DNA of 64,000 nt from Sipunculus nudus (Eukaryota; Annelida; Sipuncula; Golfingiida; Sipunculidae), in NCBI GenBank assembly GCA_026874595.1, contig CM049320.1, positions 32,088,214 to 32,152,213 of the forward strand, read 5' to 3'. A program made the position numbers and the translations under genes. Shown piece by piece: positions 1,262 to 4,200 of this stretch; position 1 is the stretch's first letter; each line of letters opens with the position of its first letter. The notes below the pieces were generated by a model that saw only the letters and a program-made list of their open reading frames with translations, had not been told where the DNA came from and searched no databases.

Positions 1262-4200
1262 GACAAGGCCATGCCAGAATTGATTGAGATCATTAATGCC
1301 TACAAACCAGAAGTGTTGTGGTCTGATGGTGACTGGGAAGCTCCTGATACCTACTGGAACAGCACAGGGTTCCTGGCTTGGCTGTATAATGACAGGTAAA
1401 AGCACTGTGAAAAATCTCAGCTGACTGCTTTTCTTTAAACTGAATATCAGTTGTACCAAGCAAGCAGGACAAGAATTTGTGTATAATTTTTCTCCCACCC
1501 CCCTGCTTCAGTGGTTGATTGTGTATGTAATCATCAGGGATTAATAATAAAATTCAGGGTTCTTCACTAGCCAATATAGCCTGGTGCACTGCCATTTCTC
1601 ACCTCCAGCCTTTAATGTTACCTGCCATTCTTTCATCTGTCTCCCCCCCCCCCCCCTGTATATTGCTTTAGGCCTTTGTACTATTATGTTCATATTTTCA
1701 CCCCCTTGCTCAAAAATAGTGCTGAGAATGGAACAGTAATTTTTTTTCATTGGTCAAATACACAATACACATAGATGTACTGAACATTAATCAATGGATA
1801 TATATTAAATCTCACAGTTTTGTATGTAGCGTTATAATCACAGTTAACTGCAGGGGCAATCTATGGACACCACATTGCGTCAGTCACTAAAAGGAAGCAA
1901 TTGAGGAGTTCTTTCTAATAGGCTATACACAGACCAGTGTATGAGCGTGATATTCTACTACCAGTATATCAACCGTTGTGCTAATTATGTCACTCTATGT
2001 ACACATTGATTTCTGGAACACTTGAGCTATGTGTGATAACATTGTTATTGCATCACAGTGAGAGGCTCGCCCACTGGATAATGTCAGCTGTAAACATGTC
2101 CTGGATATGAATAATTAACCTTAGGATATTCTTTTTTTTAACAGTGATGGTTGCTGCCATCTGGCTATATTGTGTGTAACTAAAATTTTTACCAACTAAA
2201 CTGAGTTTAAACTAAAAACTATTTTATTTTTCAGTTTCTTTTTTGATAAATATGGTTTCATTCATGAAGAGTAATGTCACATATATGATAGTATTAACTT
2301 TTGATGTTGTATTAATGTGATATATGCAAGAAAAATACTTTTTCCAACTAAACATTAAAATCAAACTAAAAACTATTTTTTGTTCAGTTTGTATTTTAAT
2401 AAATATTATTTCATACATGAACTTCATGTCACATATATGACAGTACTAACTCATGAAATCGTAATAATGCAATATTGTATAAATGAAAAATACTTACCAA
2501 CTAAACTTTAAATTAAAACTAAAACTACATTTTGATCAGTTTGTATTTTAATAAATATTATTCACTACACAAAAGTAAATTGCACATATATGACAGTAAT
2601 TATTAATGTGATATTGTACTAATGTTACATTGTATGAACTAAAAATTTGTTTTGTTTATAATTTCCTATATTTTTATCTTTTTATAGTCCTGTTAAAGAT
2701 ATTGTGGTCACCAATGATAGATGGGGGAGCGGCACTCCATGTCACCATGGTGGTTACTATACGTGTCAAGATAAATATAACCCAGGTAAACAAATACACT
2801 CATGCATGACAAAGTCTCTAGCTGCTCTCTCTCTCTCGCTTCTATTTTCAGTCCGGTTAAGGACACTGTTGTTACGAACGATCGCTGGGGATCTGGTGTT
2901 GCATGTCATCATGGTGGATACTACACATGTTCTGACAGATACAACCCTGGTAAGAAGGTCAAAGGTCATTCAATCCCCTTGTGTCTCGTCTGTATCACAC
3001 CTTTCTTTGTATTTGTGTTGCACATAAAAAAGGCCATCTTATGTTAATTAATTAAACCACCCCCACGCTATCACTGAGTAAGGTCACAAGGTCATGGTCA
3101 CCTGCTCAACTCTTCAACCCAGCCAATGCACCTCTTTAGTGCAGATGACACCTACTTTGTTCATTGCCATCAATCCCCTTTTAACAGATGGCGCCTGATT
3201 ATCTCATTTCAGTTCATTTCCATAGTGTAAAAGGCGCTTGCTTGCCTTCTTGTGTCCGTTCAGTCCAACCCTTCTGTGTACTGGTAAATGTTGTCTGCAT
3301 GGCTCTTTGTGTAGATGCCACCTGCTTGTCTCCTTTTACTCCAACCCTTCTGTGTTGATAATGTCTGCATGGCTCTTTGTGTAGATGGCACCTGCTTGGC
3401 TCCTTTTACTCCAATCCTTCTGTGTTGATATTATCTGCATGGCTCTTTGTGTAGATGGCACCTGCTTGGCTCCTTTTACTCCAACCCTTCTGTGTTGATA
3501 TTATCTGCATGGCTCTTTGTGTAGATGGCACCTGCTTGGCTCCTATTACTCCAACCCTTCTGTGTTGATATTATCTGCATGGCTCTTTGTGTATATGGCA
3601 TCTGCTTGGCTCCTATTACTCCAACCCTTCTGTGTTGATATTGTCTGCTTGGCTCTTTGTGTATTTGGCATCTGCTTGGCTCCTATTACTCCAACCCTTC
3701 TGTGTTGATATTGTCTGCCTGGCTCTCTGTGTAGATGGCACCTGCTTGTCTCCTTTTACTCCAACCCTTCTGTGTTGATATTATCTGCATGGCTCTTTGT
3801 GTAGATGCCACCTGCTTGTCTCCTTTTACTCCAACCCTTCTGTGTTGATAATGTCTGCATGGCTCTTTGTGTATATGGCACCTGCTTGGCTCCTTTTACT
3901 CCAACCCTTCTGTGTTGATATTATCTGCATGGCTCTTTGTGTAGATGCCACCTGCTTGTCTCCTTTTACTCCAACCCTTCTGTGTTGATATTATCTGCAT
4001 GGCTCTTTGTGTAGATGCCACCTGCTTGTCTCCTTTTACTCCAACCCTTCTGTGTTGATAATGTCTGCATGGCTCTTTGTGTATATGGCATCTGCTTGGC
4101 TCCTATTACTCCAACCCTTCTGTGTTGATATTGTCTGCATGGCTCTTTGTGTAGATGCCACCTGCTTGTCTCCTTTTACTCCAACCCTTCTGTGTTGATA

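Follow-up and report, generated by a model that had tools for sequence, protein, structure and literature searches.

A Tandem-Duplicated Exon Encoding the Catalytic Acid of an α-L-Fucosidase in Sipunculus nudus, Probably Spliced in a Mutually Exclusive Manner

The Locus and the Fucosidase Gene

The window analysed in this study is a whole stretch of 64,000 nucleotides from Sipunculus nudus (contig CM049320.1 of assembly GCA_026874595.1, positions 32,088,214 to 32,152,213 of the forward strand), and the positions given below are counted from its first letter. Statements from the literature rest on parts of the papers that are cited by PMC number. On the plus strand lies a gene which, judged by its domains and alignments, is a GH29 α-L-fucosidase of the animal FUCA1-like kind. 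The isoform stretch with exon copy a matches PF01120 with 121.9 bits and that with copy b with 125.8 bits (cut-off, 25.2), PF16757 (Fucosidase_C) is matched with 71.8 bits (cut-off, 25.6), and the closest solved structure is that of human FUCA1 (7pls_A, E 1.9e-54, isoform a as query). The N-terminal half of the fucosidase, that is, the start of the gene, the earlier exons, the first half of the barrel and the signal peptide, must lie beyond the left edge of the window.

The coding model in the window consists of an upstream exon of 134 nt (1262–1395), one of two exon copies of 98 nt, namely a (2688–2785) or b (2852–2949), a downstream exon of 133 nt (6305–6437), an exon of 171 nt (8675–8845) and the last coding exon (10227–10485), all on the plus strand. 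The upstream exon ends on two nucleotides of a codon and carries, according to the exon model and the alignment with 7pls_A, the equivalent of the nucleophile D225 in the motif LWSDGDW. The downstream exon carries the equivalent of E289 (HKWENC), and the last exon contains the Fucosidase_C domain and the stop. Copies a and b are separated by an intron of 66 nt (2786–2851), and the remaining four introns of the model measure 1,292, 3,355, 2,237 and 1,381 nt. Either single copy gives 795 nt in frame over the window part, with the stop at 10485. A tblastn search of the window with the protein and both exons gave no credible match to a third exon copy or a second fucosidase, the best other match being weak (E 0.66, 22437–22460, minus strand).

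Elsewhere in the window, an open frame at 32273–33058 has a sulfotransferase domain (PF00685, 181 bits), and a similar-looking fragment was noticed by eye around 43486–43751. In addition, two similar gene-like regions of the methyltransferase type on the minus strand, 45045–46529 and 52897–55105, perhaps represent a tandem gene duplication; PF13649 and PF08241 are matched at 46104–46529, and the region 52897–55105 was likened to it by eye from its open reading frames.

The Exon Pair and the Reading Frame

An earlier note on this DNA had described two 98-nt exons lying 66 nt apart with GT-AG borders and identical phases, and its description, coordinates included, was confirmed on the sequence. 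Copy a has the acceptor CTTTTTATAG and the donor GTAAAC, copy b has the acceptor CTATTTTCAG and the donor GTAAGA, and both have split codons at their ends. The U1 pairing energies of the donors are −8.3 (a), −8.0 (b) and −8.3 kcal/mol (donor 1395), and the pyrimidine fraction is 0.82 (a) and 0.91 (b), values which speak to the splice-site consensus only and not to function. The 66-nt intron has a CT-rich tract, and a pyrimidine-rich stretch of 28 nt without AG lies between intron nt 36 and the acceptor.

When aligned without gaps, the copies are identical at 69 of 98 nt and at 28 of the 33 residues encoded by complete codons. The 29 nucleotide differences fall on codon positions 1, 2 and 3 as 5, 5 and 19, respectively, and the five amino-acid differences (a/b) are I/T, T/V, P/A, Q/S and K/R; the claim that both copies are free of stops and differ at just these residues held codon by codon. 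A chance repeat is ruled out because the runner-up 98-mer on either strand of the window matches copy a at only 47 of 98 positions, against a mean of about 25. Common ancestry of the flanking intron sequences was rejected, as they have no meaningful similarity (local scores 6 and 8). Directly upstream of exon a, at 2164–2646, a unit of about 152 bp occurs three times in tandem, in diverged copies.

The frame logic proposed for the pair stood as well: one copy keeps the frame, inclusion of both a and b leads to a stop at amino acid 121 of the window part, and inclusion of neither leads to a stop at amino acid 58. Both stops lie in the exon 6305–6437, at distances of 271 nt (double inclusion) and 264 nt (skipping) upstream of the last junction. 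Messages with a stop so far upstream of the last junction are expected to undergo nonsense-mediated decay.

The Catalytic Acid Encoded by the Exon

Residues were numbered as in FUCA1, D225 serving to anchor the count so that residue q of the query is FUCA1 residue 204 + q, and the alignment is gapless over the exon; as a control of the numbering, FUCA1 Glu289 and Gln281 land on the expected E and Q. The exon thus numbered corresponds to FUCA1 residues 248–281, including Asp276, the acid/base of FUCA1 by structure and kinetics (Armstrong et al., PMC9548408). The equivalents of both the aspartate nucleophile (D225) and the aspartate acid/base (D276) are found in both isoforms, in isoform b by its letters. 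The context of Asp276 is C-Q-D-K-Y in copy a and C-S-D-R-Y in copy b, that is, the differences at 275 (Q/S) and 277 (K/R) directly flank the catalytic acid, and the others are situated at 253 (I/T), 264 (T/V) and 265 (P/A). The differences had earlier been placed near the substrate pocket, which is right and can now be put more sharply, since the exon itself holds the Asp276 equivalent and two of the differences are its immediate neighbours.

The five positions were also compared with those of 30 bacterial relatives, which were all 30 loci from one collection scan. The loop is built differently in these relatives: all 30 have gaps at positions 276 and 277, and position 275 is Glu in 29, without Q or S. 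Position 253 shows ten residue types, among which Thr (as in b) occurs four times and Ile not at all, and position 264 shows six, with Thr (as in a) in 12 loci and Val (as in b) in five. At position 265, 24 loci have Arg and five have Pro (as in a), with no Ala. Because of the wide variation at 253 and 264, the family tolerates change at least there, and claims of altered specificity have to be tempered accordingly; with the Pro265 of a also present in five of the relatives, the two isoforms might be functionally equivalent as far as these comparisons go. Human FUCA1 matches a at one and b at none of the five differing positions. In human FUCA2, three of the five differing residues match b. 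As to which copy is ancestral, the signal is mixed, FUCA1 agreeing with a at one residue and the bacterial loci agreeing now with a, now with b.

Selection on Both Copies

The comparison of synonymous and nonsynonymous change between the copies, which the earlier note had suggested, was run by NG86 and gave pN 0.139 versus pS 0.782, the latter being saturated and past correction. Nine of the 11 shared fourfold sites differ, as do 18 of the 27 codons for the same residue. Random synonymous recoding of b gave a mean identity of 67.9 (sd, 3.0), and 41% of 5,000 recodings reached 69. The observed 69/98 is the level expected from such recoding, and the synonymous sites are randomised.

Divergence was also simulated with either copy as the ancestor and a transition weight of 2; for each combination of ancestor and mode, eight depths were run 1,500 times apiece. 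Pairs with 25 to 33 differences were kept and scored as to whether they had at most five amino-acid changes and were free of stops. Not one of the 5,430 pairs in which one copy evolved neutrally and the other by synonymous changes only passed this score, nor did any of the 4,607 pairs in which both copies were neutral. Since neutral evolution never gave so few amino-acid changes, both copies are, on this comparison, under purifying selection, unless one of them evolved in a paralogous fucosidase and was then captured. Nor is either of them a relic left to decay since a duplication that old.

A Possible Barrier to Joint Inclusion

Adenines in the 66-nt intron occur at nt 3, 4, 5, 7, 8, 9, 11, 13, 17, 21, 24, 26, 27, 28, 35, 59 and 65. 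Those separated from the 3' end of the intron by 15 nt or more all sit within 35 nt of the donor of a, and A59 and A65 are too close to the 3' end, so that the branch point for b should lie no more than 35 nt from that donor. The top branch-point motif matches are A17 and A24, by a simple motif count rather than a trained predictor. In vertebrates, a steric threshold of about 50 nt between donor and branch point is reported, with known cases at 25–46 nt, including branch points 25–41 nt from the donor in human OGDH and 41 nt in rat Tpm1 (PMC7969005), and 57 of 629 human clusters (9%) show potential interference of this sort (PMC5740500).

Two other kinds of barrier were considered. Incompatibility of U12 and U2 sites was rejected, as the five donors are all of the GTAA type, none is of the U12 type and every acceptor has CAG or TAG at its end, and folding of the 66-nt intron gave no RNA hairpin beyond −2.0 kcal/mol. 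Introns of 55–65 nt are spliced efficiently in animals that have many short introns. The steric argument may therefore fail to apply to this intron, which makes the frame shift the safer of the two barriers. Joint inclusion may be hindered by plausible branch points at 35 nt or less from the donor, judged against a threshold derived from vertebrates, together with the frame shift. The earlier reading of the pair as mutually exclusive exons is well supported by the anatomy, the frame logic, the selection and the position of the branch points; its steric block by the short gap depends on the vertebrate threshold and may not transfer.

UGCAUG Motifs and the 70-bp Array

The intron between a and b contains one RBFOX-type UGCAUG (2803–2808, plus strand) at intron nt 18–23, between the branch-point candidates A17 and A24, for which a regulatory role may be supposed. 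The chance of this motif in a random 66-nt piece is about 0.025, as estimated from the window outside the array described below. RBFOX proteins are reported to further skipping when bound upstream of an exon and inclusion when bound downstream (PMC5840707), and reportedly govern mutually exclusive pairs in C. elegans (PMC3585155). By the position rule, the site at 2803 is predicted to favour a over b.

The intron just downstream of b contains, in addition, a 70-bp tandem array of 23.7 copies with 93% matches (3291–4946, plus strand), whose regulatory role would be speculative. UGCAUG occurs in it 20 times in the sense and never in the antisense orientation, and all 20 units holding it also hold UUUGUGU. 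A UGCAUG near the exon, as is usual for RBFOX-regulated exons, is thus found as a motif both at 2803–2808 and in 20 array copies. The units, however, are near-identical and have a higher-order repeat pattern, so selection on the motif is not inferred, and the count may be a by-product of amplification. The same rule applied to the array sites would favour b, and the net direction is not predictable. Further copies of the motif are found inside exon b (2900–2905), once in the sense orientation in the intron 6438–8674 and three times in that at 8846–10226; since these introns have no alternative exons and yet contain UGCAUG, as does exon b itself, its presence alone proves little. In the whole window TGCATG occurs 63 times against 41.7 expected, and none of 100 shuffles reaches 63; the array accounts for 20 of these, and the remaining 43 are close to the expectation for the whole window. 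Titles of open-licence papers on UGCAUG in tandem repeats or minisatellites include none on such an array. The same intron also contains a tandem duplication of 267–268 bp at 5798–6219, just upstream of 6305, with identities of 79% and 86% over two matched blocks.

These motifs allow a bolder proposal, which we hold to be unlikely: an RBFOX-family protein between the branch-point candidates of b would flip the acid/base loop between two chemistries, an expandable 70-bp minisatellite downstream, with its 20 further UGCAUG sites, would set the threshold, and the enzyme would be the first glycosidase in which the exon for the catalytic acid/base serves as the splicing switch. If it were true, the number of repeats in an individual would influence its choice of active site.

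Interpretation and Alternatives

The best explanation of the locus is, very probably, an ancient tandem duplication of a 98-nt exon in a GH29 α-L-fucosidase gene whose copies are now spliced in a mutually exclusive manner. The adjacent homologous exons of equal length, their identical phases, the single-copy frame rule, the consensus splice sites and the purifying selection are all found here, and the gene probably makes two active-site-loop versions of the fucosidase by splicing in a or b. An ancestral exon would have been duplicated in tandem long ago to give two interchangeable copies. Direct splicing from a to b would be blocked, any branch point of b being within about 35 nt of the donor of a, and the frame shift would dispose of mis-spliced forms through stops expected to trigger nonsense-mediated decay. 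The choice of copy would exchange residues 248–281, including Asp276 and its two neighbours, and would tune catalysis in pH or substrate preference with activity kept. More tentatively, a member of the RBFOX family, bound to the UGCAUG that lies between A17 and A24, might favour a.

It is rather improbable that one copy was captured from a paralogous fucosidase by unequal exchange, or is an otherwise unused exon spliced only aberrantly, with a coding state that came from selection in a donor gene. Saturated synonymous divergence is as expected of old paralogues and could predate the arrival of the exon, bivalves have numerous fucosidase genes (eight in a scallop genome, with eleven oyster sequences mentioned; PMC5159873), and the flanking introns bear no similarity that would mark duplication borders. 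Both copies, however, have intact splice sites and phases, no stop and, in the intron between them, the 28-nt pyrimidine-rich stretch, and another fucosidase was not found within the window. Use of both exons for dosage control via nonsense-mediated decay, with functionally equivalent isoforms, is distinctly less probable still: the stops of both mis-spliced forms and the location of two of the five differences at widely variable sites would suit it, but a pure decay switch would have no need of two copies that are fully coding, diverged and altered next to the catalytic acid, and the placement of the branch points makes double inclusion unlikely. An assembly artefact, in which two haplotypes or paralogues were placed side by side, is barely credible and was rejected. 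Nearby tandem repeats can mislead assemblers, but no sign of an artefact was seen in the sequence; 29 of 98 sites differ with synonymous positions randomised, the flanking introns are unlike, and a single upstream exon and a single downstream exon serve both copies in one contiguous gene model.

If the two copies are indeed used exclusively, one gene gives two natural, matched active-site variants that are five residues apart, with two of these residues beside the catalytic acid. With such a pair it could be tested cleanly how pH and the choice of substrate are tuned by the residues next to the acid/base, and whether animals, besides duplicating the genes, also use splicing to diversify their fucosidases.

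Comparison with Known Systems

In the open-licence literature, mutually exclusive exons in a fucosidase were not found, nor, by title, in any glycoside hydrolase, and nor were alternatively spliced active-site isoforms of mollusk fucosidase; for fucosidase together with exon duplication, the one paper that came up is on an algal genome. Human FUCA1 (PDB 7PLS and 7PM4) is a GH29 enzyme that aligns without gaps across the exon, with its D225 and D276 represented in both isoforms, but alternative exons are not mentioned in the part of PMC9548408 consulted. In the intron adjoining the mutually exclusive pairs egl-15 5A/5B and unc-32 7a/7b, UGCAUG is likewise present (PMC3585155); binding and a genetic requirement were shown there, whereas the fucosidase has the motif alone, situated next to the branch-point candidates of the intron between the copies. 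In OGDH exons 4a/4b and α-tropomyosin (rat Tpm1 intron 2), exclusivity is enforced by a distance of less than about 50 nt between the upstream donor and the branch point (PMC7969005), as is proposed for the fucosidase pair. Their branch points were mapped by experiment, whereas those in the fucosidase are candidates read from the sequence, and the intervening intron of OGDH is 118–131 nt in birds and mammals versus 66 nt here.

Of the two closest precedents among enzymes, CYP4F3 has its substrate preference altered by splicing (as cited in PMC7434440), although it is a cytochrome P450 and unrelated to the fucosidase. The other is the pair of exons 6a/6e of COQ-2, a rhodoquinone switch in nematodes, annelids and molluscs: these, too, are homologous internal exons that are equally long (134 nt, likewise 3n+2), and their swap remodels the enzyme core at residues close to the substrates (PMC7434440). 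COQ-2, however, is a prenyltransferase whose exon is genetically tied to rhodoquinone synthesis, whereas the fucosidase is a glycoside hydrolase whose exon holds the catalytic acid and for which an isoform effect is proposed. Splicing switches that alter the catalytic core of an enzyme are considered rare by the authors of the COQ-2 work (PMC7434440). Mutually exclusive exons are thus a known phenomenon, and what would be new or unusual in the Sipunculus fucosidase is that the swapped exon carries a catalytic residue, Asp276.
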